Shown in pieces: positions 10,305 through 33,766 of a DNA stretch of 64,000 nucleotides. Each line of letters begins with the position of its first letter. The first letter of the stretch is position 1. The position numbers and the translations under genes were made by a program. This DNA comes from Marinobacter szutsaonensis. Lineage in GTDB: Bacteria; Pseudomonadota; Gammaproteobacteria; Pseudomonadales; Oleiphilaceae. The stretch covers positions 62,001-126,000 of the forward strand of contig NZ_BAAAFC010000003.1 of NCBI RefSeq assembly GCF_039523335.1, written 5' to 3'. Below the pieces are notes generated by a model. That model saw nothing but the letters and a program-made list of their open reading frames with translations. It made no database searches and was not told the DNA's origin.

Positions 10305-10526
10305 GGCGAACCTCTTTCGGTCATGCCGCTACCCGGTCACGGGGAATCAATCCCTGGCGCCTGGCACCGCATGTTTGAATCAAAGTGAAAGGCGAGGCAC
10401 AATCATGCCCTGCCGAAAACAGACCGCGAATAATACTTGCAATCCCTGTGACAGGCAAGCCTTACGGGCGCTTCATTCCCTGCCTCGTGGCCACAATACC
10501 ACCAGGCTGCCGGGTTAGATCCCTAA

Positions 10527-16250: not shown

Positions 16251-16353
16251 CCTTTCGGGGATGTGATTCCGAAACACGCTGTGGATACGTCCATGTACGC
16301 TCCGCTCCGCCATCCATGGCTCCGCAGGGTTTCGGAATCACATCCCCGAAAGG
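16251..16353 (-). repeat. Variable-arm conserved-loop hairpin, copy A
   Basis: Arms at 16251-16275 and 16329-16353 are perfect 25-bp inverse complements (left arm begins CCTTTCGGGGATG and ends CCGAAAC). The 53-nt loop, read on the minus strand, carries the family core TGCGGAGCCA-T-GGATGGCGGAGC and ends AGCGT just before GTTTC. The rest of the loop differs from copies B-E (GTACATGGACGTATCCAC). There is no T-run. Confidence 0.9.
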
Positions 16354-16406
16354 CGCCCATACTTCTGCTGCTCGTCGAAATCACCGCGGCCTACTCATCA
16401 GCTTGG

Positions 16407-16524
16407 GGCCGGGTTCGGTATGCAGCCCTCCAAAACTGTGCGGAGCCAAGGATGGCGGAGCTCAAGCGCCACATGGACGTGCCGCAAGGAGCGTGTTTTG
16501 GAGGGCTGCATACCGAACCCGGCC
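16407..16524 (+). repeat. Variable-arm conserved-loop hairpin, copy B
   Basis: Arms at 16407-16436 and 16495-16524 are perfect 30-bp inverse complements (left arm begins GGCCGGGTTCGG and ends CTCCAAAAC). The 58-nt loop differs from that of copy D, 15 kb away, at only 2 positions, although the arms of the two copies are different sequences. Confidence 0.93.
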
Positions 16525-16610
16525 TTGCACCGAAACTCAGACTCTTGAATTCTCCGCCATTGCCTCCATTACTTCGGAATACCAATTTCAAACAGGCAAT
16601 TGGAGCCCCA

Positions 16611-17141
16611 ATGACTACCATTCTTTCTGTCCGGCGAGACGACGAAGTCGCCATGGGAGGCGACGGCCAGGTTTCCCTCGGCAACACCGTGATGAAAGGC
16701 AACGCCCGCAAGGTACGCCGTCTCTACAACGGCCAGGTAATTGCCGGCTTTGCCGGAGGAACCGCGGATGCGTTCACCCTGTTCGAACGGTTCGAGGCCC
16801 AACTGGAAAAGCACCAGGGCAACCTGACCCGGGCCGCGGTCGAGCTGGCAAAAGACTGGCGAACGGATCGGGCTCTCAGAAAACTCGAAGCCCTGCTGGC
16901 CGTGGCGGACAAGACCGCCTCGCTGATCATTACCGGTAACGGTGACGTCATTGAGCCCGAGCAGGGCCTGATCGCCATCGGTTCCGGCGGCCCATTTGCC
17001 CAGGCATCCGCCCGTGCCTTGCTGGAGAATACCGATCTGTCCGCCCATGAGATTGTGGAAAAAGGCCTGGATATCGCGGCCGACATCTGTATCTACACCA
17101 ACCACAATCGCACCGTCGAAGTGCTACCCACCAAAGATTGA
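16611..17141 (+). CDS. hslV: HslV (ClpQ) ATP-dependent protease peptidase subunit
   Basis: The protein has 176 residues from the ATG at 16611, which has GGAG 6 bases upstream. Removing Met exposes Thr2 of [20 protein letters not shown], the N-terminal nucleophile threonine of this proteasome-like peptidase. The conserved [15 protein letters not shown] and [17 protein letters not shown] follow. It forms two stacked hexamers capped by HslU. Starting upstream would bury the catalytic Thr, which is strong evidence for this start. The hslU start lies 12 bases downstream. Confidence 0.98.
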
Positions 17142-17153
17142 TCCGGAGCGACC

Positions 17154-18485
17154 ATGTCTGCAATGACTCCCCGAGAGATTGTCCACGAGCTCAACAAACA
17201 CATCGTGGGCCAGGAAGAAGCCAAACGCGCAGTGGCCATCGCGCTGCGTAACCGCTGGCGCCGGATGCAGCTGGACAGCAGCCTGCGGGACGAGATTACC
17301 CCCAAAAACATCCTGATGATCGGCCCCACCGGTGTCGGCAAGACTGAAATTGCCCGTCGCTTGGCCAAGCTGGCCGATGCGCCGTTCCTGAAGGTGGAAG
17401 CCACCAAGTTCACCGAAGTGGGCTATGTGGGACGGGATGTTGAGTCAATCGTCCGCGATCTGGCGGACATGGCGGTGAAGATGTTGCGCGAGAAAGAAAT
17501 GAAGCGCCACGAAAGCCGTGCCCTGGATGCAGCCGAGGAACGGATTCTGGACGCCCTGCTGCCGCCGGCCCGGGATTTCAACGAAGAAAGCCAGCGGGCC
17601 AGCAATGACTCCTCTACCCGCCAGCTGTTCCGCAAGAAGCTACGGGAAGGTGAACTCGATGACAAGGAAATCGAGATCGATCTGCGCAGCGCTGGTGCCG
17701 GCGTGGAGATCATGGCGCCTCCGGGCATGGAGGAGATGACGAACCAGCTGCAGAGCATGTTCTCCAACCTGTCTTCCGACAAGCGCAAGACCCGCAAGAT
17801 GAGGGTGGCCGACGCCCTGAAACAGGCCAAGGACGAGGAAGCCGCCAAGCTGGTCAACGAGGAAGAGATCAAGCAGAAGGCCATTCAGGCGGTGGAGCAG
17901 AATGGCATCGTGTTTCTGGATGAGATCGACAAGGTGGCCAAGCGCTCGGAAAACACCTCCTCCGACGTTTCCCGGGAAGGCGTGCAGCGGGACCTGCTGC
18001 CGCTGATCGAAGGCAGCACGGTGAGCACCAAGTATGGCTCCGTGCGCACCGATCACATCCTGTTCATTGCCTCCGGCGCGTTCCACCTGTCCAAGCCGTC
18101 CGACCTGATTCCGGAATTGCAGGGGCGTCTGCCGATCCGGGTTGAGCTGCAGGCCCTGACGCCGGATGACTTCAAGCGCATCCTGACCGAGCCAGATGCG
18201 TCACTGGTCCAGCAGTATGAAGCGCTGATGGCGACGGAGGGGGTCAAACTGACCTTCGGCGAGGATGCCATTGCCCGGATTGCGGAGGTGGCCTGGAAGG
18301 TCAACGAAACTACCGAGAATATCGGTGCCCGACGTCTTCACACGGTGCTTGAGCGGTTGCTGGAGAGCCTGTCTTACGATGCGGGTGATCAGGTGACCGA
18401 GAGCTTCGAGGTGACTGCAGAGTATGTGGATGAGAAGCTTGGTGAGTTGTCCGAGGATGAGGACCTGAGCCGGTATATTCTCTGA
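17154..18485 (+). CDS. hslU: HslU (ClpY) ATPase subunit
   Basis: The protein has 443 residues and is the AAA+ unfoldase that feeds substrates to HslV. Walker A is [20 protein letters not shown] near 60; the pore-loop segment is [17 protein letters not shown] near 90. The intermediate (I) domain spans about 110-235, followed by Walker [14 protein letters not shown] near 250, a sensor region and the C-terminal [13 protein letters not shown] segment. The C-terminus LSRYIL is the conserved tail that inserts into HslV. The Shine-Dalgarno CCGGAG supports the first ATG; an ATG three codons later is possible. Confidence 0.98.
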
Positions 18486-18494
18486 CTGGAACAT

Positions 18495-18631
18495 GGGTCA
18501 GAAGAAGATTTTCATCAGACCCCGGCCTGAAGTTGGGGTCAGAAGAAAGCTTTCTTCTGACCCCGATTTGGACTTCAACTCCGAGGCCGAGCAGTGAAGA
18601 TGGGGTCAGATGAACGCTTTCATCTGACCCC
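18495..18631. repeat. Palindrome cluster 1 (three copies) between hslU and the patatin-like gene
   Basis: Three copies of the GGGGTCAGA...TCTGACCCC family. 18495-18523 is degenerate. 18535-18564 is a perfect 30-bp palindrome of half-site GGGGTCAGAAGAAAG. 18602-18631 has half-site GGGGTCAGATGAA. They lie between convergent genes; the last is followed by a T-run and could end hslU transcripts. Confidence 0.9.
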
Positions 18632-18644
18632 TTTTTTCATTCTG

Positions 18645-19886
18645 TCACTCGGCCCTGGAAAACAGATGCGTGACGTTCTCCAGGCTCGCGGCGATCTTTC
18701 CCTTCTCCGCCTGCTTTTTCCTGCCCTTCGCCACATACAACGGCAACATCTCACCGTACAGGCTGGTGCTTATGGTCCTCTGCTCGTCCTCGAGACGGTC
18801 CCGGCGCAGCTTGATTCCATACCGGGCCAGTTTCGGCTCCAGTTCGTCCGCCCGATTGAGCAGATCCCGGCGGGTCATCTGGTAGGCGTGCTCGCACACC
18901 ATCCGGCGGCTCTGGAAGCTGAATACATTGGAGAAAAACAGTTTGGCATCATCGCGGGTTGGCTCGAACAGGAGAATTTCCTTGTCCGGATAATCTCTCG
19001 CGTACTGGGCGATGCCGGACTGCATGCGAGAATAAACCATGGTCCGGAAGGTCTGGGACAGCAGGTTGGGCATACCTGAGCGAGTGAGCTCGCCCGGCTT
19101 CATGGTACCGGCCCGCACGGCGGCACTGGCGTCGATGGGTACCTGGGGATTCACGGCAAACACCACATCGGCACCATCCTCGAAGGCAACCGAGGCATGC
19201 AGACCTTTGCGCAGGGTGCCGTCAACATAGTACCGACCGTCGATTTCCACAGGCACATAGAGCCCCGGCGATGCGGTGCTGGCCTGGATGGCCTTGGATA
19301 TCGGCACATGGTCAAAGCCCGGCGCCCCGAAACACACGGCTTCAGTGCTTTCCACATCGGCAGCCACCACATACAGGCTGCGCTTCAGCTCCCGGAAATC
19401 GTTGGTGCGCCCGAGCATGGTGAAGGCACGCTTGAGGTAGTCGTGCAGCCCTTCATTATCGAACAGGCCGGCCGGGGCGGCCTGGGCCAGGATCGTCAAT
19501 GCCTCCAGAAAACTCTGATCGTAGGGGTTATTGATGAACCGGCTGACGGCGGTAGACATCAGGCCCGGTACCGCCAGCAAACGGCTGCCGATTTCCCGGA
19601 ACGCCGGACGATAGAATACTTCCGGATGAAACGGATGCACCTCCGCCTCATTTCGCACAAAAATCCGGCACAGCTGGGCCGTGGTCATCTGGTTTGCCAG
19701 ATTGGCAGCGGCGAAGGAACCGGCATTAACGCCCACATAGACATCCAGATTGTTGAAATCCAGGCCATCCAGCGCCTCGTCGAGCGCCCTGAGTGCACCG
19801 ATCTCGTAAATGCCGCCCAGCGGCCCACCGCCACCAAGGGCGAGGCCGATTCTGGGTTTCGGTTTGAGGTCTGTTGAGGCACTCAT
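18645..19886 (-). CDS. Patatin-like phospholipase-family protein, nucleophile Ser replaced by Asn
   Basis: The protein has 413 residues. The N-terminal region has the patatin oxyanion motif (GLALGGGGPLGG, about 14-25) and the nucleophile-elbow position, but the elbow reads G52-V-N-A-G56 followed by S57, not GxSxG. The Asp motif YYVDGTLRKG (about 221-230) is kept. Known patatins use a Ser-Asp dyad, so this protein is either not a hydrolase or has moved its nucleophile. The C-terminal 120 residues are basic, helical and without a recognised domain. No signal peptide was seen. It is convergent with hslU, with palindromes between. Confidence 0.85.
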   Translation of the reverse strand: MSASTDLKPKPRIGLALGGGGPLGGIYEIGALRALDEALDGLDFNNLDVYVGVNAGSFAAANLANQMTTAQLCRIFVRNEAEVHPFHPEVFYRPAFREIGSRLLAVPGLMSTAVSRFINNPYDQSFLEALTILAQAAPAGLFDNEGLHDYLKRAFTMLGRTNDFRELKRSLYVVAADVESTEAVCFGAPGFDHVPISKAIQASTASPGLYVPVEIDGRYYVDGTLRKGLHASVAFEDGADVVFAVNPQVPIDASAAVRAGTMKPGELTRSGMPNLLSQTFRTMVYSRMQSGIAQYARDYPDKEILLFEPTRDDAKLFFSNVFSFQSRRMVCEHAYQMTRRDLLNRADELEPKLARYGIKLRRDRLEDEQRTISTSLYGEMLPLYVAKGRKKQAEKGKIAASLENVTHLFSRAE

Positions 19887-19989
19887 AGTCAGTCAATCTC
19901 CGGACCGTAACGTTATCGGTATCCCTTGGCCACAACATAACAGTCGAATTTAGAAAACACACCCTATATTCCCCGGGTGGGGCCGGGGG

Positions 19990-22296
19990 TCAGGAAACGG
20001 CCTGTTCGGAGAAGGCCATTGAAGAGCTACGACCGGGGCGCAGGTAACGGCCAAAGCCGGCGTTCCGAAGTGCCAGATCCACGCAACTCTTGATGACATG
20101 GGGAGAATCGAGCAGCAGGACGTCTTCCAGAAGCTGAATCGCCCACTCACGGCTGATGCTCCGGATCACCGACTTTACCTTGGGCAGGCTGGCTGCGTTC
20201 ATGGACAGGGAATCGTAGCCCATGGCCATCAGCAGCAACGCCCCGCCGGGATCACCCGCCAGCTCGCCACAGATGCCCACCGGTTTGCCGACCGCATGAG
20301 CGTCCTGGGCAATCCGAACCAGGGCCTGAAGCACCGCGGGATGGTAGGAATGGTACAACTGCGCGACCCTGGGGTTGTTGCGATCCACCGCCAGCAGGTA
20401 CTGGGTCAGGTCGTTGGAACCTACGGACAGGAAATCCACCCGGTCCGCCAGTTCACGGATCTGGTAGACGGCCGCAGGAATCTCCACCATGACGCCGACC
20501 TTCGGCATGTGGATGTCATAGCCCTCTTCCCTCACCTCGTGATACACGCGGTAGATCAGGTGCAGGGATTCCTCGACTTCCGAGATATTGCTGATCATGG
20601 GCAACATGATCTGCAGATTATTCAGCCCTTCACTGGCCTTGAGCATGGCCCGGACCTGTACCAGGAAGATTTCCGGGTGGTCCAGGGTGACCCGGATGCC
20701 ACGCCAGCCCAGGAACGGGTTTTCCTCATTGATCGGGAAGTATGTCAGCGCCTTGTCACCACCGATGTCCAGGGTGCGCATGGTGACCGGATTGGGGGCG
20801 AAGGCTTCCAACTGCTCCCGATAATACTCCCGCTGCTCCTGCTCGGAGGGGAAGCGGTCCTTGATCATGAACGGCACTTCCGTGCGGTACAGGCCGATAC
20901 CCTCGGCACCATGGGAAAGGGACCGCACCACATCGGTCATCAGACCGGTGTTCACCAGGAGCGATACCCGGTGGCCATCGGTGGTCTCGCAGGGCTTGTC
21001 ACGAAGCGCCTCAAGCCCCCGGATCAACTCATCCTCTTCGTCACAGATAGCCTGGTAGAAGGCACGGAGATCCTGTGACGGCGAGGCGAAGATCTGGCCC
21101 TCGAAGCCATCAACAATCAATTCCTTGCCATCAAGCTGGTTGACCGGGATATCCACCAGGCCCATCACCGTGGGCACGCCCATGGCCCGGGCCAGGATCG
21201 CCACATGGGAGTTACTGGAGCCCTTGACCGAAACCAGGCCCACCAGTTGTCCTTTGGGCACCTCCCCGAGCATGGCAGGCGTCAGCTCCTCGCTGACCAA
21301 CACCGTTCTCTCCGGGTAGACCAGGTGCTTCTGTTCACCTTCCTGCAAATGGGACAGCAGGCGCCGGCCAAGATCCCGGATATCCACCGCCCGCTCCTGC
21401 AGGTAGTGGTCATCCATCATCTCGAAGTGGCGGACATACTGCTGGACCACCTGCTTGAGCGCGCCCTGGGCCCAGGTGCCGTCAGCAATCTTGTTGGCCA
21501 CTTCGCCGGGCAAAGCCTCGTCTCCCAGCATGCGGAGGTAGACATCGAACAACGCCTGTTCTTCGGGCCGCAACTGGCTGGCCAGTCGCTTGGCCACGCG
21601 TTCAATATCTTCCCGTACCGCCTTGACCGCAGCCTTGAACAGCTTCAGCTCACCCTCGATATCTTCCGTGGGCTTTTCCGGGACCACATCCAGGTCCGCC
21701 GCCGGATACACCACCACACCGGTGCCGATGGCGACACCGGGTGCACCGGGCACACCGTTGAAACTGACATCCCTGGCTTCCTCGCCGGTCAGGGACAGTC
21801 CACTGATGGCACCGGTGGCTTCACTGTGGGCGATAACCCCGGCCAACTGGGCAGAGACCGTCACCAGAAAAGCTTCTTCACCCTCGTCAAAACACCGAGA
21901 GCTTTCCCGCTGCTGAACCACCAGCACACCGAGTACCCGGCGATGGTGAATGATGGGAACCCCCAGGAAGGAGCGGAAGCGCTCTTCACCGGTCTCGGGG
22001 AAATAACGATAGCGGGGATGAGAGGGGGCATCCTCGAGGTTGATGGGCTCCTCGCGGGAGCCCACCAAGCCGACCAGACCTTCCGAATAACCCAGGCTCA
22101 CCTGACCCACCGCCTTGCGGTAGAGGCCCTCGGTGGCCATCAGGATATAGCGGTTGGTGGCGGGGTCGAGCAGGTAGACGGAGCAGACCTCGGTATTCAT
22201 GGCCTTTTGCACCCGCGATACAATGATATCCAGCGCCTCCTGCAGATCGCGGGCGCTGTTTACCTCTTGTACAAGACTTCGCAGTATGCTCAGCAT
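19990..22296 (-). CDS. ptsP: PtsP, GAF-domain phosphoenolpyruvate-protein phosphotransferase (EI-Ntr)
   Basis: The protein has 768 residues. The GAF sensor domain is at about 1-160. The PEP-utilising N-terminal domain follows, with helices around 220-330. The phospho-His swivelling domain has GSSNSHVAILARAMGVPTVMG (active His near 366). The C-terminal TIM barrel has RTEVPFM, GWRGIRVTLDHPE, GVMVEIPAAV, DFLSVGSNDLTQYLLAVDRNN and the catalytic-Cys segment GICGELAGDP. It starts the nitrogen phosphotransferase relay that regulates nitrogen and carbon metabolism. The 15-base gap to rppH upstream indicates an rppH-ptsP operon, as in many gammaproteobacteria. Confidence 0.96.
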   Translation of the reverse strand: MLSILRSLVQEVNSARDLQEALDIIVSRVQKAMNTEVCSVYLLDPATNRYILMATEGLYRKAVGQVSLGYSEGLVGLVGSREEPINLEDAPSHPRYRYFPETGEERFRSFLGVPIIHHRRVLGVLVVQQRESSRCFDEGEEAFLVTVSAQLAGVIAHSEATGAISGLSLTGEEARDVSFNGVPGAPGVAIGTGVVVYPAADLDVVPEKPTEDIEGELKLFKAAVKAVREDIERVAKRLASQLRPEEQALFDVYLRMLGDEALPGEVANKIADGTWAQGALKQVVQQYVRHFEMMDDHYLQERAVDIRDLGRRLLSHLQEGEQKHLVYPERTVLVSEELTPAMLGEVPKGQLVGLVSVKGSSNSHVAILARAMGVPTVMGLVDIPVNQLDGKELIVDGFEGQIFASPSQDLRAFYQAICDEEDELIRGLEALRDKPCETTDGHRVSLLVNTGLMTDVVRSLSHGAEGIGLYRTEVPFMIKDRFPSEQEQREYYREQLEAFAPNPVTMRTLDIGGDKALTYFPINEENPFLGWRGIRVTLDHPEIFLVQVRAMLKASEGLNNLQIMLPMISNISEVEESLHLIYRVYHEVREEGYDIHMPKVGVMVEIPAAVYQIRELADRVDFLSVGSNDLTQYLLAVDRNNPRVAQLYHSYHPAVLQALVRIAQDAHAVGKPVGICGELAGDPGGALLLMAMGYDSLSMNAASLPKVKSVIRSISREWAIQLLEDVLLLDSPHVIKSCVDLALRNAGFGRYLRPGRSSSMAFSEQAVS

Positions 22297-22311
22297 GGCA
22301 GGGTCAGTCCG

Positions 22312-22842
22312 TCATCTTGAGTGATCCTTCAGGCGCCGGTTCTGTTCGGCTTTCCGCCACTGTTCCATGTTGTAGAACAGTCGTGGAGCCAGCTCCCGCA
22401 GCGCACGTCTGTATACTTCTCGTTTGAATGAAACCACCTGGCCTAGCGGGTACCAGTAGCTAACCCACTGCCACCCGTCGAATTCCGGTGAATCCGTGCC
22501 GTCCACACGCACTTGCGCGTCCGGCGATAACATCCTCAGCAGGAACCATTTCTGTTTTTGGCCCACACACACAGGGTGTGAGTGATGGCGCACCATCCTC
22601 CTGGGAAGACGGTACCTCAGCCAGCCCCGAGTACAGCTGATGATTTCCACATCACTGGCTGTGAGGCCGATTTCCTCTCCAAGCTCCCGGTAAAGCGCAT
22701 CCTCCGGTGATTCGTTGTGCTTGATTCCACCTTGGGGAAACTGCCAGGAGTCCTGACCTATTCGCCTTGCCCAGAGAACTTCGCCCCTGTGGTTGGCCAG
22801 AATGATTCCGACATTGGGTCTGAAACCGTCTGAATCGATCAC
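22312..22842 (-). CDS. rppH: RNA pyrophosphohydrolase RppH
   Basis: The protein has 176 residues, a Nudix hydrolase that removes pyrophosphate from 5'-triphosphorylated mRNA and so triggers RNase E decay. The N-terminus [20 protein letters not shown] and WQFPQGGI are typical of RppH. The Nudix box [20 protein letters not shown] followed by IGL covers about 37-59. It is upstream of and probably cotranscribed with ptsP, and divergent from the HAD hydrolase gene. Confidence 0.96.
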
Positions 22843-23013
22843 GGCACAGTCCTCGCAAAAGTCGGCCGCCGGTCAATTTCTGACCGGCGAAAATTGTCCA
22901 AGTTGCTCTCATTCTTACAGAATCCCAAGGGTTCGGCAAACGGAGCCGATGCCGACAGGTCATGGTAGACTGTGAGCCTTCCTGAAAGCCCTTGTAACAG
23001 CGGAGGACACCCT

Positions 23014-23670
23014 TTGACGCTCGCACTTTTTGATCTGGACAACACCCTGCTGGCTGGCGACAGCGACCACGCCTGGGGCGAATTTCTGGTGGAAGAAGGT
23101 CTGGTCGATGCCGAGGAATACCGCAAAGCCAACGACCGGTTCTACGAGGAATACCTGAACGGCGAGCTGGACATCTTCCACTACCTCCGCTTCGCCCTGC
23201 AGCCGCTGGCCCGGCATGACATAGACGAACTGCTGGCGTGGCGCGAAGCCTTTCTTGAGAAAAAAGTACGCCCAATGATGCAGGAAAAGGCCCGGGAACT
23301 GCTGGACCGGCATCGCCAGCAGGGCCACACCCTGATGATCATCACCGCCACCAACCGGTTTGTGACCGAGCCGATTGCGGAGTTGTTAGAGGTTGAGCAC
23401 CTGATCGCCACCGAGCCGGAACTGGTGAATGGCCGGTATACCGGGGAGGTCGCCGGCGTCCCCAGCTTCCAGGACGGCAAGGTGACCAGGCTGAACGACT
23501 GGCTTGACCATCACAAACGCACGCTGGAGGGGGCCTGGTTCTACAGCGACTCCCATAACGATGTGCCACTTTTGAAGCAGGTGGAAAACCCGGTGGCGGT
23601 GGATCCGGACCCGAGGCTGGAAGCGCTGGCGAAGGAATCGGGGTGGCCGGTGATTTCTTTGCGGGGGTGA
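23014..23670 (+). CDS. SerB-like HAD-IB family hydrolase, TTG start
   Basis: The protein has 218 residues from a TTG at 23014 preceded by GGAGG 7 bases upstream. This start puts the catalytic DxD motif (LALFDLDNTLLAGDS) right at the N-terminus, as in relatives; a GTG at 22972 would add 14 unrelated residues. HAD motif II is in MIITATNRF, and motifs III/IV are in the Lys-containing DGKVTRLNDWL and the acidic YSDSHNDVPLL. It is probably a phosphatase for a small phospho-metabolite; the substrate is unknown. It sits next to rppH-ptsP as in Pseudomonas. Paired palindromes follow its stop. Confidence 0.9.
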   Translation: MTLALFDLDNTLLAGDSDHAWGEFLVEEGLVDAEEYRKANDRFYEEYLNGELDIFHYLRFALQPLARHDIDELLAWREAFLEKKVRPMMQEKARELLDRHRQQGHTLMIITATNRFVTEPIAELLEVEHLIATEPELVNGRYTGEVAGVPSFQDGKVTRLNDWLDHHKRTLEGAWFYSDSHNDVPLLKQVENPVAVDPDPRLEALAKESGWPVISLRG

Positions 23671-23685
23671 GTTCGGGGTGAACGA

Positions 23686-23771
23686 GGGGTCAGATGAAGG
23701 CTTTCATCAGACCCCGGGAATCAGGCCCCGGGATTAGAATTGGGGTCTGAAGAAAGCCTTCTTCTGACCCC
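23686..23771. repeat. Palindrome cluster 2 (two copies) between convergent genes
   Basis: Copies at 23686-23715 (GGGGTCAGATGAA half-site) and 23742-23771 (GGGGTCTGAAGAA half-site). In each, one arm reads TCAGA and the other TCTGA, giving a single mismatch in the stem. Gene ends converge on both sides. Confidence 0.92.
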
Positions 23772-23783
23772 GTTTTCAGCCTC

Positions 23784-24983
23784 TCACATAAACCCGGTCA
23801 GCGAGCGCACGAAACACGACTTGATGTAATCCGTCTCCGGAATCCCCGGAATCACCGGATGATCCGGCGCCTGGTGGCCCTGCTCCAGCAGCTGCACGAA
23901 CCGGTCAATCTTGCGGCCGCTGCTGCGGATGATGTCGATCAGCTTTTCCTGGGACAGATGCATGGAACAGGACGCCGACACCAGCAACCCGTCCCGCTCA
24001 AGCAGCCGAAGCCCCAACTGGTTCAGACGGGCATAGGCCTGTTCACCGGCTTTCTGATCCCGGCGCCGCGGAATCAGCGCCGGCGGATCCAGGACCACGA
24101 TGTCATATTTCTCTTTCTCGTCCGCCAGCGCCTTCAGCGCTTCGAAGGCATCGCCCTCGATGGTTTCGATATTGTCGAGCCCGTTGATCTTCGCATTATG
24201 GTGTACCGCATCGATCGCCGTTGCCGAGGCGTCGACACAAGTCACCTGGGTAGCACCGGCACAGGCGGCCTGCAGCCCCCAGCCACCGACATAACTGAAC
24301 ACATCCAGCACCCGCTTACCGGGCGCGTAAGCCTGCAACCGCTGACGATTCATCCGGTGGTCATAGAACCACCCGGTTTTCTGGCCGCCGGCCAGCGGCA
24401 CCTCAAAGCGAACGCCATTCTCATCGACCTGCAGCAGATCCGCCTCCGGCCCGTGTGCCTGTTCCACATAGGTATCCAGACCCTCAACCTTCCGCATCTT
24501 GCCGTCGTTCTTCAGGATAATCGCCTTGGCATGCACCAGACGCTGAACAGCGCGAACAATCGCCTCCTTCATGAGCTCCATGCCCGCCGTGGAAATCTGC
24601 ACCACCACGGTGTCCCCGAAACGATCAACCACCAGCCCGGATAGCCCGTCGCTGTCACCAAACACCCAGCGGTAGAACGGCTTGTCGAACAGCCGCTCCC
24701 GCACCGCCAGCGCAAGCTCCATCCGTTCCGTCAGCCGCTGCGGCGTCATTCCCTGGGACGGATTCCGGCTGATCAAGCGGCCACAGATCAGCGCATGGGG
24801 GTTCACAAACACCGTTCCCAACGGCTTGTCATTGGACGCCCGCAGCTCGGCCTGATCACCGGGCTGGAACTCCGTCAGCGGCGTACGGCGGGTATCCACC
24901 TCATTGCTGTATACCCACAAATGGCCGGCACGGAGGCGGCGCTCGGCGCCCTTGCGCAGGTAAAGAACCGGAAAATCCATCAA
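23784..24983 (-). CDS. rlmI: Class I rRNA (cytosine-5-)-methyltransferase, RlmI family
   Basis: The protein has 399 residues. An N-terminal PUA domain (about 4-80, LYLRKGAERRLRAGHLWVYS) is followed by the EEHEE-like middle domain and a Rossmann SAM-binding domain with VLDVFSYVGGWGLQAA near 225. The motif IVVLDPPALIP near 300 and the Cys in VSASCSMHLS near 340 correspond to the catalytic region of 23S rRNA m5C methyltransferases. E. coli RlmI modifies C1962; the same target is inferred here. Start at 24983 or the adjacent ATG at 24980. It lies downstream of gcvH, separated by hairpin copy C. Confidence 0.85.
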   Translation of the reverse strand: MMDFPVLYLRKGAERRLRAGHLWVYSNEVDTRRTPLTEFQPGDQAELRASNDKPLGTVFVNPHALICGRLISRNPSQGMTPQRLTERMELALAVRERLFDKPFYRWVFGDSDGLSGLVVDRFGDTVVVQISTAGMELMKEAIVRAVQRLVHAKAIILKNDGKMRKVEGLDTYVEQAHGPEADLLQVDENGVRFEVPLAGGQKTGWFYDHRMNRQRLQAYAPGKRVLDVFSYVGGWGLQAACAGATQVTCVDASATAIDAVHHNAKINGLDNIETIEGDAFEALKALADEKEKYDIVVLDPPALIPRRRDQKAGEQAYARLNQLGLRLLERDGLLVSASCSMHLSQEKLIDIIRSSGRKIDRFVQLLEQGHQAPDHPVIPGIPETDYIKSCFVRSLTGFM

Positions 24984-25048
24984 ATATCACCTGAGGAAAA
25001 TTGGAAAGTTAAGAGCTAACGCCGGCATCGGCCAGCACTGTTGTCCGG

Positions 25049-25158
25049 GCGTGTTTCAGGGTGGGCCTTCCGAAACTGTGCGGAGCCAGGGATGGCGGAG
25101 CCCAAGCGCCCCAGGGATGGGTTTGAGCGTGTTTCGGAAGGCCCGCCCTGAAACACGC
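25049..25158 (+). repeat. Variable-arm conserved-loop hairpin, copy C
   Basis: Arms at 25049-25076 and 25131-25158 (28 bp) pair with a single G-T wobble (left GGGTGGGCC, right GGCCCGCCC). The 54-nt loop has the core TGCGGAGCCA-G-GGATGGCGGAGC and the CCCAAGCGCCCCAGGGATGG segment shared with copy E. It begins 15 bases beyond the gcvH stop. Confidence 0.92.
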
Positions 25159-25173
25159 ATGCTCCGAAGCTAC

Positions 25174-25566
25174 TTACTCCTCGGCAGCCACATGCTCTGC
25201 GTAAGCAGCGGCATCCATCAGCCCGTCCAGCTCACCGGCATCCTCCAGCTTCACCTTGAACATCCAGCCATCACCATACGGATCCTCATTGACCAGCTCC
25301 GGCTCGTCCTCAAGGTTCTCATTGACCGCAATCACCTCACCGGTCACCGGGCTGAACACATCCGAAGCCGACTTCACCGACTCGGCTACACCGGCTTCCT
25401 GGCCACCGTTAACCGTCACACCAACATCCGGCACACCGATGTACACCACATCGCCGAGCTGTTCCTGGGCAAAATCGGTAATACCTACGGTAGCGGTGCC
25501 ATCGTCAGCAACCCGCACCCACTGGTGGGTCTCAATGTATTTCAGGTCTGAGGGAATATCACTCAT
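25174..25566 (-). CDS. gcvH: Glycine cleavage system H protein
   Basis: The protein has 130 residues. The lipoyl-attachment lysine lies in [17 protein letters not shown] (Lys near 64), and the surrounding hammerhead fold sequence ([21 protein letters not shown]) is typical. It carries the aminomethyl intermediate between the P, T and L proteins. No gcvT or gcvP is adjacent; they must be elsewhere. Hairpin copy C follows and metR precedes it on the same strand. Confidence 0.97.
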
Positions 25567-25611
25567 GATTGTGCTTCCTGTTAAATTTTTCGCGCAGTTT
25601 AACGCAAGAGC

Positions 25612-26502
25612 CTAGCCCCAGCGAACCTCCCGAGCCAGGTTCATGAACGAATTCAGATAATCTACCTCACAATCCCGTTCACGAAGGCCCAGAAAGATCT
25701 GCTTCGGCAGCCCTTCCTCTCCCAGACGCACCGGAACCACCGGGAGCTTCTCAGCATACTCCGCCACCAGCCATTTCGGCAGCGCAGACACACCCCGCCC
25801 GGCGGCGACCATCTGCAACATGATGTCCGTCGTCTCGATGGTCTTGTGCCGCGCAGGGCTGGCATGAGCCGGCAGGAAGAAGCGGGTATAGATATCCAGC
25901 CGCTCCACCTCCACCGGATAGGTGATCAGGGTTTCCCGCTCCAGGTCCCCGGGCACGACAAACTCCCTGTTCGCCAACGGATGATCCCGGGAGACCACCA
26001 GAACCTGCTCGTAATCGAACACCGGCTCAAATACCAATCCGGGCCGATGCAGCGGGTCCGGGGTCACCAGCATATCGATGTCATGACCGAACAAGGCGCC
26101 GATCCCACCAAACTGGAATTTCTGTTTCACATCCACATCCACATCCGGCCAGCGCTCAAGATAAGGCCCAACCACCTTCAGCAACCACTGGTAACAGGGA
26201 TGGCATTCCATGCCGATCCGGAGCGTCCCGCGCCTCCCACTGGCAAATTGACCGATAACTTCTTCCGCGTGTTCAAGCTGGGGAAGAAGGCGATTCGCCA
26301 GCGACAGCAGATACTCACCCGCTTGGGTCAGCCGTAACTGACGACCATCCCGCAGCCACAGAGGTGTGCCCAGATAACGCTCCAGCTTGCGAATGGCATG
26401 GCTGAGTGCCGACTGCGTGAGGTGCAGGGACTCTGCCGCCGCCGTCAGGGAGCCGTCGCGATCAACGGCACGGAGAATCTCGAGATGGTGTCGATCAATC
26501 AT
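25612..26502 (-). CDS. metR: LysR-type methionine regulator MetR
   Basis: The protein has 296 residues. The winged helix-turn-helix is at 1-60 (LEILRAVDRDGSLTAAAESL, HLTQSALSHAIRKLE), followed by a LysR effector-binding domain that begins LRIGMECHPCYQWLLKVVGPY. The CHPCYQWL pattern is typical of MetR, which responds to homocysteine. It is divergent from metE with a MetR-type box between, the classic autoregulated metR-metE arrangement. Confidence 0.95.
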   Translation of the reverse strand: MIDRHHLEILRAVDRDGSLTAAAESLHLTQSALSHAIRKLERYLGTPLWLRDGRQLRLTQAGEYLLSLANRLLPQLEHAEEVIGQFASGRRGTLRIGMECHPCYQWLLKVVGPYLERWPDVDVDVKQKFQFGGIGALFGHDIDMLVTPDPLHRPGLVFEPVFDYEQVLVVSRDHPLANREFVVPGDLERETLITYPVEVERLDIYTRFFLPAHASPARHKTIETTDIMLQMVAAGRGVSALPKWLVAEYAEKLPVVPVRLGEEGLPKQIFLGLRERDCEVDYLNSFMNLAREVRWG

Positions 26503-26521
26503 GGGCCAACACGCTATTTAG

Positions 26522-26534
26522 TGAATTTATTTCA
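26522..26534. promoter_or_regulatory. MetR binding box
   Basis: TGAATTTATTTCA matches the MetR consensus TGAA-N5-TTCA and lies in the metR/metE divergent intergenic region, 20 bases upstream of the metR start codon and 100 bases upstream of metE. Confidence 0.8.
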
Positions 26535-26633
26535 TGGAATGCTGAAATAATACCATTTTCATTCATGCCACAGCCCACCTAACCTGACTGACTCTTATCC
26601 AAAGCAAAAAAAATCAGACGTCAGGAGTACAAG

Positions 26634-28946
26634 ATGGTTACCACTCACTCACTGGGCTACCCCCGTATTGGCGCCCAACGGGAGCTTAAATTCGCTCTGG
26701 AAGCCTACTGGCAAGGCCGGCTGACCGAGGAGGAGCTGGAGATTACCGCCAGTGACCTGCGACGCCGCCACTGGCAAGACCAACAGGCGCTGGATCTTGT
26801 GCCGGCAGGAGACTTTTCCCTGTACGACCAGGTACTGGACATGAGCGAAACCCTCGGACACCTCCCTGAACGGGCAGGCAAGCCGGGCGGTCACAGACTC
26901 GACCGGTATTTCCGGGCCGCACGGGGCCGCGGTGCCAATGACGATGGCTGCTGCGGCACCCAGGCCGGCGAAATGACCAAGTGGTTCGACACCAACTATC
27001 ACTACATTGTCCCGGAGTTTCACCGGACCACGGAATTCAAGCTCGACAGCACCCGGATTCTGGCCCAGCTCGACGAGGCGCAGCAACAGGGTTTCCGAGC
27101 CAAACCGGTCATCATCGGCCCGGTCACCTATCTCTGTCTGGGCAAAGCCAAGGACGGAAGCGATCCCCTGGCACTACTCGAGCGACTCCTGCCCGTTTAC
27201 GGTGAGTTGCTCGATCAACTCGCCGAGGCCGGTGCGGAATGGGTCCAGGTGGATGAGCCTGCCCTGGTCACCGAACTGGACGATCGCTGGCGCCACGCCT
27301 TCAGCCTTGCCTACCATCACCTCAAGGGCGCCCGCCCGAAACTCCTGCTGACCACCTATTTCGGCCAGCTGCGGGAGAACCTCCAGCTCGCCTGCGAATT
27401 GCCGGTGGCCGGGATGCATCTGGATGCCGTGGCGGCCCGACCTGAAGCGGACCGGCTGGCCGACTGGCTGGCGCCACACAAAGTGCTGTCGCTCGGGGTC
27501 ATCAACGGCCGGAACATCTGGAAAACCGACCTCAATGCGACGCTGGACTGGCTGGAACCCCTGCATGCGCGACTCGGCAGCCGGCTCTGGCTGGCCCCGT
27601 CCTGCTCACTGCTGCATGTTCCTGTCGATCTGGAACGTGAAGACAAGCTCGATCCGGAAATTCGTCAGTGGCTTTGCTTTGCCCGCCAGAAACTCCGGGA
27701 GCTCGCCACCCTGGCCAAAGCCTTGAACCATGGCCGGGCCAGTGTCGCCCGGGAGCTCGAGGACAACCACATCGCCGTTCACTCTCGCAGGCGGTCGCCG
27801 CGAACCCACAACCCGGCAGTTCGCGAGGCGATTTCCCGAATTACGCCACAGCTTGGCCAGAGAAACAGCACTTTCGAGGCTCGCCACAAGCTCCAGAGCA
27901 GGGCCCTGCCTCTCCCCCGGTTTCCGACCACCACCATCGGCTCTTTCCCGCAAACCGGAGACATCCGGCAAGCCCGCCAACAATACCGGGCCGGGAAACT
28001 GGGCAAAGGAGATTACCTGACCCGGATCAAGCAGGAGATTGCCCACTGCATCCGTGAACAGGAGGTTCTGGGCCTGGACGTCCTGGTCCATGGTGAAGCC
28101 GAGCGGAACGACATGGTGGAGTATTTCGGGGAGCAACTGGATGGTTATTCCTTCAGCCGGTTTGGCTGGGTCCAGTCCTATGGCTCACGCTGCGTCAAAC
28201 CACCCATCCTGTTCGGTGATATCACCCGACCAAAAGCCATGACCATAAACTGGCTCCGGTACGCCCAGTCGCTGACCGATAAGCCAGTGAAGGGCATGCT
28301 CACCGGACCGGTCACCATGCTCAACTGGTCTTTTGTCCGGGACGACCAGCCCCGGGCCGAGACCTGCTGGCAGCTGGCCCTGGCCATCCGCGAAGAGGTG
28401 CAGGACCTGGAGCGCGCCGGCACCCGGATCATCCAGATTGACGAAGCGGCGCTACGAGAAGGTCTGCCCCTGCGAAAATCCGACTGGCAGGACTATCTGG
28501 ACTGGGCCATCGACGCCTTCCGGATTGCCGCCAACGGGGTCGATGACACAACCCAGATCCACACCCACATGTGCTATTCGGAGTTCAATGACATCATCCA
28601 GGCGATTGCCCGGATGGACGCCGATGTCATTACCATCGAGACTTCCCGTTCCGACATGGAGCTCCTCGATGCCTTCCAGGATTTCGAGTATCCCAACGAT
28701 ATCGGCCCCGGTGTCTACGACATTCATTCTCCCAACGTGCCGGAACAGGCGGAGATCATTGCCCTGATGGAGAAGGCAGCGGAGAGGATTCCAGCCGAAC
28801 GGCTGTGGATAAACCCGGACTGCGGCCTGAAAACCCGGCAATGGCAGGAGGTGAGCCCGGCCTTACGGGCGATGGTCGCGGCAGCTAGGGAACTCAGACA
28901 GCGACTGGCGCAACCGGCCGAGAACGGCGAACTGGTAACTCAGTAG
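26634..28946 (+). CDS. metE: Cobalamin-independent methionine synthase MetE
   Basis: The protein has 770 residues. It transfers methyl from 5-methyltetrahydropteroyl-triglutamate to homocysteine. The N-terminal half starts [21 protein letters not shown]. The C-terminal catalytic barrel carries the zinc ligands in [13 protein letters not shown] (His and Cys near 645-647), a Glu further on and the Cys of [11 protein letters not shown] near 730. [10 protein letters not shown] marks the start of the second half. The AGGAG Shine-Dalgarno is good. The last 7 bases overlap the convergent cpdA gene. Confidence 0.97.
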
Positions 28947-29746
28947 CCCGAGCTCTTCTGATCCAGCTCGAACTCGAAGGCCCTGGCGCGATGAACTTCG
29001 GTGCTGAAGTGACCGCCCGGCTCGAGCTCGAACCAACGGTAACCCGGCGCCAGCGGCTCCACGGAAAAGTCCCTGGCGCCGGAGGTGAACTGGATACAGG
29101 TGGAGGGTGTGGCAAGCAGCTGCACCCCGTTCCGGATTTCTGCGTGCTCCTGATGGACATGCCCCCAGAGCACGACCCGTACCTGGGGATGGCGGTCGAT
29201 CACCGCCCAGAAGGCGTCACGATTGCGAAGTCCAATTTGCTCCATCCAGTCCGCCCCGATGTCCACCGGATGATGGTGCAGTGTGACCAGTGTCGGCACA
29301 TCGGGATATTCGGAAAGCGCGCGTTCGAGAAACGCCAGCTCACTGTCCGCCAGCTCGCCATAAACCTTGCCATGGACGGAGGAATCCAGCAGCACGAAAT
29401 GCCAGCCGCCCTGCAGGATTTGGCGGCGATCGGCCTGATACTCCGCCGCAACACGGCTGAGAACTCCGGAGTCATCGTGATTACCGGCCAGCCAGGCGGA
29501 GCCGCAGTGGAAGGAGGAAAGACTGTCACCGAAAACACGATACGCCTGTTCCGAGGCGTCCTGGGCCAGATCTCCGGTGGCCAGGATCAGGTCCGGCTGA
29601 CCATGGGCCTGCAATACCTCATCGACCACGGCCGCGAGACTGTCCCGCGTATTTACGCCCAGCAATGCACCGTCCTCACGGGCCATCAGATGGGGGTCTG
29701 TTATCTGGAGCACCCGCAAGGGGCGGGCCTCGTCCGGTCTGGTCAT
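28940..29746 (-). CDS. cpdA: 3',5'-cyclic-AMP phosphodiesterase CpdA
   Basis: The protein has 268 residues and is a calcineurin-like metallophosphoesterase. The metal-binding motifs appear in order: QITDPHL (D, H), [26 protein letters not shown] and LWGHVHQEH. It hydrolyses cAMP, lowering CRP activity. Gene order nudF-yqiB-cpdA is the same as in E. coli (nudF-yqiB-icc), which strengthens the assignment. No parE or yqiA follows here; metE converges instead. Confidence 0.93.
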
Positions 29747-29907
29747 GGCGAACCTGTTAAGACTGATGCAACCACTTGAAACAGGGACAAGTGTACGACG
29801 AACGCGTCAGAATGGGTCAACGGCAATTGCAACCGGAGTCACATTCCCGCCAGGCGCCGTCAACATATTGCTATTTTTGACAACTATGACACATCCACCG
29901 CGGGCCA
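29747..29907. other. Gap between yqiB and cpdA
   Basis: These 161 bases between two minus-strand genes could carry a cpdA promoter. I see no clear promoter, CRP site or terminator. Confidence 0.3.
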
Positions 29908-30393
29908 TCAGTCCACACCCTCGCCGGCTGGCCAGGCAGCGTACTCCATGGGCAAATGGCCAAAGCGCAGACAATAATCCAGCCAGTCAGCCAGGAAGCC
30001 ATTCACCTGAACCTTCTCGTCAGGGTGATGCATGAAGCGGTTGGGATAATCATTGACCGGCGCAATCTGTCGGTCCCGGTAACAGCTGATCACCTCGGCC
30101 ATGGCAGCGTCGTGATAGACGCGCACGGTCATCTGGGGATTGTTCAGCCAGCGACCGGAATTGTGGACCTGTTCCAGCAACAGGGTTTCGGTAAATCGGG
30201 CCGTCTGCAGAACCTTGATCCGGACCCGCCCCAGGTACTGGTTCTCCCGGTGCAACTCGAACTCGCACACCGGCTTGCCATCGGCTTCCAACTGACGCAA
30301 CTTGCTCAGGCGCTGGTAATTGCCGTCGCACAGGGCGCCGAGCTGCCGGAGATCCGGCACGTAGCGCTTGGGTTTCATGGTCCACTCGGTCAT
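29908..30393 (-). CDS. yqiB: DUF1249 protein, YqiB family
   Basis: The protein has 161 residues from the ATG at 30393, which overlaps the nudF stop (TGATG); a GTG one codon earlier is possible. The conserved stretches are MTVRVYHDAAMAEVISCY, DYPNRFMHHPDEKVQVNGFL and ADWLDYCLRFGH, which align with E. coli YqiB. The function is unknown. It is always found between nudF and cpdA, two genes that hydrolyse nucleotides. No membrane segment or signal peptide. Confidence 0.93.
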   Translation of the reverse strand: MTEWTMKPKRYVPDLRQLGALCDGNYQRLSKLRQLEADGKPVCEFELHRENQYLGRVRIKVLQTARFTETLLLEQVHNSGRWLNNPQMTVRVYHDAAMAEVISCYRDRQIAPVNDYPNRFMHHPDEKVQVNGFLADWLDYCLRFGHLPMEYAAWPAGEGVD

Positions 30394-31010
30394 CACTGCT
30401 TTCCTTCACGGAGTCTTGAACGGTTCAGTTCAAGCCATTGAAGCGCGATGATAGCGGCAGCGTTGTTGATCCGGCCATCGTGGATCATGGCTATGGCTTC
30501 GTCCGCAGACACCACGTGGGCCCGGATATCTTCGTGCTCGTGTTCCACGCCGTACAGGCCGCCAGCATCTTCGGTGCTGATATGGCCACAGTACAGGTGA
30601 ATCATTTCAGTGCTGCCGCCCGGAGACACCAGGTAATCGCAGATCTTGTCGAGCCGGCTGAAGGTGAGCCCGGCCTCTTCCTGGCCTTCCCGCTGGGCCA
30701 CTTCTTCGGGGGTTTCACCGTCTTCGTTCATTCCGGCCACGAGCTCGAGCAGCCATGGGGACTGGCTGCGCCCGAGGGCACCGAGGCGGAACTGTTCGAG
30801 CAGGACGACTTCGTCCCGGTCGCAGTCGTAGGGCAGCACGCAGGTGGCGTCACCCCTTATGAAGAGTTCCCGGGTAAAGACCGGCATGTCACGGCCGTCA
30901 AAACGCGGGTGGGTCAGCCAGAGCTTGTCCATGCGGAAGAAGCCCTGGAAGACGGTTTCGCGTTTTTCGACTTTGACGTCGCTGTCTTTGAACTGGAACG
31001 GTTCGGTCAT
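30393..31010 (-). CDS. nudF: ADP-ribose pyrophosphatase NudF
   Basis: The protein has 205 residues. The Nudix box GMNEDGETPEEVAQREGQEE, followed by AGL, is at about 93-115, preceded by the beta-rich N-terminal dimerisation region (VFTRELFIRGDATCVLPYD) typical of ADP-ribose hydrolases. It splits ADP-ribose to AMP and ribose-5-phosphate. It is the first gene of nudF-yqiB-cpdA. A pair of large hairpins (copies D and E) lies upstream between it and thiC. Confidence 0.94.
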   Translation of the reverse strand: MTEPFQFKDSDVKVEKRETVFQGFFRMDKLWLTHPRFDGRDMPVFTRELFIRGDATCVLPYDCDRDEVVLLEQFRLGALGRSQSPWLLELVAGMNEDGETPEEVAQREGQEEAGLTFSRLDKICDYLVSPGGSTEMIHLYCGHISTEDAGGLYGVEHEHEDIRAHVVSADEAIAMIHDGRINNAAAIIALQWLELNRSRLREGKQ

Positions 31011-31120
31011 CGTTCACCCCGGTTGGTAATCGACTTTGAACGATAGCCGGTTGTTGGGGCTTCCTGCAAGCTCACGATCTGGCCTTTCGGCTCCTGACCT
31101 AGCCTGATAGTTGCGGGGCT

Positions 31121-31234
31121 GGGTGAATCGGGAAGGGCCTCCCAAAACACGCTCCTTGCGGCACGTCCATGTGACGCTTGAGCTCCGCCATCCATGGCTC
31201 CGCACAGTTTTGGGAGGCCCTTCCCGATTCACCC
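31121..31234 (-). repeat. Variable-arm conserved-loop hairpin, copy D
   Basis: Arms at 31121-31148 and 31207-31234 are perfect 28-bp inverse complements (GGGTGAATCGGGAAGG ... CCCAAAAC). The 58-nt loop, read on the minus strand, matches the copy B loop at all but 2 positions. Confidence 0.93.
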
Positions 31235-31341
31235 GATCTGACACCCTGCAAATCGCAAGTCGAGTACCTGCCACTTAGATAACATGGACATATCGCTTCT
31301 GATTTCCCGGTTTCTTCTAGCGAATTCCCTGAAACCTGATA

Positions 31342-31455
31342 GAGCTCGGTGGGTGGCCCGGTTCAGGACTGTGCGGAGCCAGGGATGGCGGAGCCCAAGC
31401 GCCCCAGGGATGGGCCGTCAGGAGCGTGTCCTGAACCGGGCCACCCACCGGGCTC
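31342..31455 (+). repeat. Variable-arm conserved-loop hairpin, copy E
   Basis: Arms at 31342-31369 and 31428-31455 pair over 28 bp with one G-T wobble; the inner 23 bp are perfect. Inner arm ends are GGAC/GTCC, not AAAC/GTTT as in the other copies: a paired change of two positions. The loop is 58 nt, of the copy C type in its first 45 nt. It ends 42 bases beyond the thiC stop. Confidence 0.93.

Positions 31456-31497: not shown

Positions 31498-33766
<2,269 letters not shown>

Follow-up and report, generated by a model that had tools for sequence, protein, structure and literature searches.

CsrB/RsmB, RsmY and RsmZ, sponge RNAs for the carbon storage regulator CsrA, are single small RNA genes with many sites, in which GGA lies within hairpin loops. 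CsrB shares an Rfam clan (CL00106) with TwoAYGGAY (RF01731), a family built from an outer stem and two hairpins with AYGGAY-like loops and typed in Rfam as Cis-reg. Here we analyzed a 64,000-nt window of the Marinobacter szutsaonensis genome (contig NZ_BAAAFC010000003.1, positions 62,001 to 126,000) carrying five long hairpins, which are copies of this known RNA family, strongly expanded and already the subject of a published CsrA hypothesis.

TwoAYGGAY appears in the catalogue of Weinberg et al. 2010 (PMC2864571), where a table marks the motif as probably not cis-regulatory. Gardner et al. 2014 (PMC4333381) proposes CsrA binding for TwoAYGGAY and describes it as a family of unknown function. 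For CsrA itself, a further paper (PMC7652899) gives the SELEX (systematic evolution of ligands by exponential enrichment) consensus RUACARGGAUGU, bridging of sites 10–63 nt apart with an optimum above 18 nt, and the RNA-binding residues L4 and R44. At the level of literature listings, no published description of TwoAYGGAY from this genus was found, and none of its copy number there.

Assignment of the five hairpins to TwoAYGGAY

The five hairpins are real, and their coordinates were given correctly in a first-pass annotation made from the sequence alone. They share a 23-base core, TGCGGAGCCANGGATGGCGGAGC, found exactly in five places of the window (strands -, +, +, -, + in order of position) and never in 100 dinucleotide shuffles. 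Loop lengths of 53, 58, 54, 58 and 58 nt bear out the annotated range of 53–58 nt, and the AGCGTGT ending holds for all five window copies. The same annotation knew of no named family with such properties, which proved wrong: the Rfam search that it had called for matches RF01731. At the default threshold Rfam returned no match on the window copies, and at relaxed thresholds four of the five were matched, with a best score of 41.6 bits.

Copy 1 (16251..16353, minus strand; core at 16304-16326, sense on the minus strand; 29.8 bits, E 0.011) lies with an ftsN-like gene on one side and hslV on the other. Copy 2 (16407..16524, plus; core 16439-16461; 41.6 bits, E 2.1e-5) has hslV downstream and forms with copy 1 a single 5'-to-5' pair (16251-16524). 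Copy 4 (31121..31234, minus; core 31182-31204; 34.5 bits, E 0.013) and copy 5 (31342..31455, plus; core 31372-31394; 27.3 bits, E 0.52) make up a second such pair (31121-31455), copy 5 being antisense to thiC and 42 nt beyond its stop codon. Copy 3 (25049..25158, plus; core 25079-25101) is antisense to gcvH, 15 nt beyond the gcvH stop; it has no RF01731 match at E ≤ 1 and is assigned to the family as a TwoAYGGAY-type copy on the basis of its core, its stem and its orthologous copies.

Both features of RF01731, two hairpins with AYGGAY-type loops and a closing outer stem, are present. At E ≤ 0.01, with up to 54 candidates scored per genome, the model matched 23 of 25 Marinobacter genomes, five above the cut-off, and the listed matches span the full model; none of 14 control genomes matched. 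Across the class, at E ≤ 0.001, at least 23 of 369 genomes and at least 21 of 272 genera matched, at least 15 above the cut-off; these figures are lower bounds, since at most seven candidates were scored per genome and the M. szutsaonensis genome itself was missed. Rfam matches to microRNA families were set aside, as such models match long hairpins of any kind.

Stem pairing and strand specificity

We collected 219 distinct Marinobacter copies, which are not independent, since 173 of them fall into 42 orthologue clusters, the other 46 being singletons; the exact core occurs in 205 of them because most were fetched with it. The arms, annotated at first pass as 25–30 bp and perfect or nearly so, are indeed almost entirely Watson-Crick, but reach 28–33 bp on extension in the window. 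Genus-wide, pairing drops near 28 bp, from 79% Watson-Crick at pair 28 to 27% at pair 30. The outer arms had been called unrelated between copies; the nearest paralogous arms are far apart, but a loose G-rich pattern is common to the 219 copies, with G-C at stem pairs 17, 18 and 19 in 73, 87 and 73%, respectively. The inner arm ends, described as loosely alike, share a firmer end, CTTTCCAAAAC/GTTTTGGAAAG.

Covariation is pronounced, with 29 of 30 stem column pairs exceeding all 870 off-diagonal control pairs (218 arm pairs). Mismatches within the stem are also strand-asymmetric: summed from the position table, pairs 2-28 contain 152 G-U against 20 A-C, and the outer nine pairs (20-28) account for 123 and 7 of these. 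Most stems do not reach positions 29-34, and the counts there are 177 and 164, uneven by position. Among the 213 copies with an assigned gene context, G-U to A-C is 20:1 in divergent, 38:1 in convergent, 42:9 in sense and 44:9 in antisense locations. Because this excess is present in all four contexts, selection on pairing acts specifically on the GGA strand. A mutational bias of one strand may be an alternative source of the excess, and would have to track the element rather than transcription.

A structured RNA, one of the options raised at first pass, is thus strongly supported by covariation, by strand-specific G-U over A-C and by stepwise compensation among orthologues (see below). A second option, a DNA-level hairpin or cruciform bound by a protein, appears highly improbable. 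Long inverted repeats would suit it, and inner pairs 2-19 are nearly free of G-U (29) and A-C (13), as if both strands had to pair; however, selection for pairing in double-stranded DNA should affect G-U and A-C equally, contrary to the asymmetry seen in the outer stem and in every gene context, and the loops carry a known RNA-protein motif. A single-stranded DNA hairpin of the GGA strand may be considered.

Loop architecture and proposed CsrA binding

In eight of the 219 copies, the hairpin 2 tip has given way to a long insert. In the 211 short-loop copies, hairpin 1 always reads ANGGA, as the search pattern demanded, and hairpin 2, which lay outside the pattern, reads ANGGA in 208; the stricter AYGGA form, with Y at the variable position, is found in 155 of 211 at hairpin 1 and 96 of 211 at hairpin 2. 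The two ANGGA motifs are 23–25 nt apart in 207 of 208 copies. Marinobacter copies thereby show the sponge-type arrangement, ANGGA in hairpin loops 10–63 nt apart. Agreement with at least 10 of the 12 positions of the SELEX consensus is seen in 108 of 211 copies and in none of 211 shuffled ones. The median cost of unpairing both NGGA is 1.3 kcal/mol (208 copies). In an alignment of 170 distinct loops, the closing pairs of hairpin 1 show compensatory variation at the base of the hairpin (U-A 126, C-G 44) and its tip is near-invariant; in other genera the stems differ while ANGGA-like loops persist, hairpin 2 often reading AGGA or CACGA.

CsrA was found in all 38 genomes searched. The M. szutsaonensis genome has one match, with L4 and R44 both present and carbon storage regulators as its best solved-structure relatives; this gene encodes a canonical CsrA.

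We consider it probable that each TwoAYGGAY copy docks one CsrA dimer and that the copies jointly form a dispersed CsrA sink. The working strand would be the one bearing GGA. A stem of about 28 bp, nearly free in sequence but kept in pairing, would hold the junction of two small hairpins, whose ANGGA loops, 23–25 nt apart, would allow one CsrA dimer to grip both. Transcribed copies would together act as a dispersed CsrA sponge, replacing one CsrB-like RNA or working beside it. Observed directly are the family, the structure, the strand-specific selection on pairing, the motif with its spacing and the canonical CsrA of the genome; transcription of the element as RNA, binding by CsrA and an effect in trans are what we infer. 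Like the described sponge RNAs, the Marinobacter units present GGA in hairpin loops; they differ in having two sites per copy, many copies and no clear promoter signal. Membership in the CsrB, RsmY or RsmZ families was rejected, as none of the 38 genomes scored above the cut-off with those Rfam models. Since the positive control (E. coli) served for CsrB only, another sponge RNA may still be present. Sub-cut-off RsmY matches in 28 of the 38 genomes were taken as noise, as 6 of 14 control genomes match too.

Several observations weigh against a CsrA-docking RNA. All window copies score below the 43-bit cut-off of RF01731, copy 3 without any match, and two Marinobacter genomes (G011 and G012) carry one core copy each and no RF01731 match, so the element is dispensable. 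Minimum-energy folds hide at least one ANGGA in four of the five window copies, with both hairpins visible by single-sequence folding in one of five, and the long-insert copies have lost the hairpin 2 tip. Besides G-U and A-C, 110 other mismatches occur in the 213 copies, and plain RNA pairing does not explain the scarcity of G-U in inner pairs 2-19. Codirectional gene pairs show no orientation preference (22 sense, 21 antisense). No clear sigma-70-like promoter was detected in the 5' flank, where the mean score was 6.52 versus 6.39 for shuffled sequence; high scores occurred at 9 of 86 loci versus 3 shuffled, but the 3' flank gave 9 of 86 on one strand and 12 of 86 on the other. Finally, none of the 14 control genomes provided a positive control for RsmY or RsmZ.

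The long form carries about 80 nt with further hairpins (L017, L018 at 7215, L078, L089, L090, L117, L134 and L218), and a copy at 5861 of L018 resembles it with an imperfect stem. Over the insert in L017, L018 and L218, no Rfam match was obtained at E ≤ 1.

Gene context and paired copies

The 87 non-redundant loci, annotated with a simple gene caller, comprise 30 convergent, 22 sense, 21 antisense and 13 divergent locations and one inside a gene. The median distance to a gene 3' end is 31 nt when measured from the 3' side of the element (51 loci) and 43.5 nt when measured from its 5' side (52 loci). A stem of 28 bp would suit RNase III. The copies might accordingly be cis elements of neighbouring genes, namely 3'-untranslated-region (3'-UTR) stabilizers, RNase III sites or terminators, a reading that we regard as quite improbable even with copies so near gene ends and convergent pairs outnumbering divergent ones. 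All four gene orientations are seen, which is at odds with it, and a 3'-UTR role was rejected for want of orientation preference in codirectional pairs. The G-U excess persists in copies that run antisense to both neighbours (44:9). The absence of a T-run, annotated at first pass, extends to the 219 copies, T being at or below 30% at each of 45 positions 3' of the stem, so that the T-run of an intrinsic terminator is lacking. Because selection on the GGA strand holds irrespective of the neighbouring genes, the Cis-reg label does not fit, in agreement with the 2010 table (PMC2864571). The Marinobacter copies thus differ from the Rfam description in being dispersed without regard to gene orientation, and in a copy-specific stem of about 28 bp with window scores below 43 bits.

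Close copies are arranged in a regular manner. Those less than 300 bp apart stand minus then plus, 5'-to-5', in 14 of 14 cases from six genomes (G003 in part), of which one genome, G024, supplies seven distinct loci; among pairs 300–1000 bp apart, two are 5'-to-5' and one is plus-plus. At the fetched Marinobacter loci, all 25 pairs within 400 bp are 5'-to-5' (two counted twice; five locus clusters). One other genus adds eight places in three genomes, all 5'-to-5' and some probably orthologous, and a single likely case comes from each of two further genera (L261, L262). When the close genomes G000 and G002 are compared, the spacer within a pair shows poor conservation at hslV and better conservation at thiC. 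It is a tentative and rather doubtful extension of the CsrA-sink proposal that Marinobacter swapped a single CsrB-type sponge for a distributed one, in which dozens of autonomous CsrA-docking units, often in 5'-to-5' pairs with a divergent transcription start in common, would set CsrA activity through their copy number and through the genome regions that are active. With up to dozens of copies per genome, and with one CsrA match in M. szutsaonensis, Marinobacter offers a natural test bed for the predicted CsrA titration.

Distribution and possible mobility

The M. szutsaonensis genome (3.96 Mb) contains 45 copies at ≤1 core mismatch. Its 44 matches to GGATGGCGGAGC include 39 with stems of 26 bp or more, three long-loop forms, one with a 12-bp stem and one (L022) that is unrelated. 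At the same threshold, the core occurs in all 25 genomes of the genus, at 1 to 58 copies each, and in none of 13 genomes from other genera of the order. A scan of named genomes yielded at least 119 stretches, those among the matches listed being all from Marinobacter records.

Orthologous loci were traced through three neighbouring genes: hslV (16611..17141, plus; NCBIfam NF003964), gcvH (25174..25566, minus; TIGR00527) and thiC (31498..33447, minus; NF006763). With the core allowed up to six mismatches, copies were present between ftsN and hslV in 7 of 30 fetched loci, where arms differ and either orientation is found at one spot; at gcvH in 17 of 30 (330 nt read); and, clearly, at thiC in 13 of 28 (520 nt read, some contigs ending there), a count that omits shortened or decayed copies. 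At the gcvH locus of G042 (L183), the loop is gone and the arms are retained as a short palindrome. In the thiC intergenic region of other species (L223, L225, L227, L229, L231), a separate palindromic repeat, GTAGGTCGGATTA...TAATCCGACCTAC or near it, is situated upstream of the plus-strand copy.

A rival reading is a repeat or selfish element that moves among intergenic sites and exploits CsrA docking or the hairpin to propagate itself, any host benefit being secondary. We consider this unlikely, despite the wide range in copy number and the variable arms and orientation at ftsN-hslV. Larger units have spread in some lineages: in G189, from another genus, three loci share near-identical elements together with about 80 bp of 5' and about 160 bp of 3' flank, and at a fourth locus the shared part is the element with 80 bp of 3' flank. 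On the other side, old orthologous copies still pair after heavy divergence, so selection acts in place, and no near-identical arms exist among 38 copies of the M. szutsaonensis genome. By eye, with no systematic search for empty sites and no search for a transposase link, no clean target duplication was noticed at the hslV, gcvH or thiC loci. The exact core was absent from IMG/VR contigs and a 63-base query had no plasmid match, phage records lying outside these searches.

Repetitive extragenic palindromes (REPs), REPINs and other intergenic palindromes resemble TwoAYGGAY in Marinobacter in being multi-copy and intergenic, with close copies as inverted pairs. REPs have fixed sequence, whereas here the stem sequence is free and its pairing covaries; assignment to REP/REPIN was rejected because the stem varies with compensation.

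In G189, the TwoAYGGAY copies at L264, L286, L287 and L288 lie within a longer dispersed repeat, with a GTACTTTCTATTG...CAATAGAAAGTAC hairpin downstream.

Evolution of the arms

Among 38 copies of the M. szutsaonensis genome, even the closest paralogous arms show at least 5 differences in 28 positions, with a mean of 8.4 versus 9.3 after column shuffling. At hslV, gcvH and thiC, the arms of orthologues are often very dissimilar, and pairing is retained. Across 89 orthologue pairs, 405 double changes preserve Watson-Crick pairing, and single-sided changes comprise 76 G-U, 11 A-C and 41 others.

In a stepwise-change test of 68 orthologue pairs, in which each copy was entered once, pairs with one or two changed stem pairs (22 changes) showed 9 G-U, 3 A-C and 4 other single changes, and 5 Watson-Crick and 1 other double changes. 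At 8–11 changes, there were 158 Watson-Crick and 19 other doubles against 22 G-U, 6 A-C and 8 other singles. Double changes thus take over with growing orthologue distance, and stem change is ordinary stepwise compensation under selection. The first-pass suggestion that the element copies flanking DNA in inverse orientation is not supported by this comparison: in the closest orthologues, 16 of 22 stem changes are single-sided, 9 of them G-U. Together with the strand-asymmetric mismatches, this led us to reject inverse copying of the flank, or template-switch palindrome repair, as the main process. Insertion of the loop into pre-existing terminators is unlikely, given the uniform stem length and the shared inner arm. 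Since separate loci of the other genus (G189) carry near-identical arms, an element can take its arms along as it spreads and diverge afterwards, and age is the more likely reason for the free arms of the Marinobacter copies. In these stems, compensatory evolution at orthologous sites is recorded naturally and on a large scale.

Other RNA features in the window

A thiamine pyrophosphate (TPP) riboswitch lies 5' of thiC (33466-33581, minus strand) and scores above the Rfam cut-off. An L31-Gammaproteobacteria ribosomal leader at 10310-10373 (minus strand) scores barely above its cut-off.

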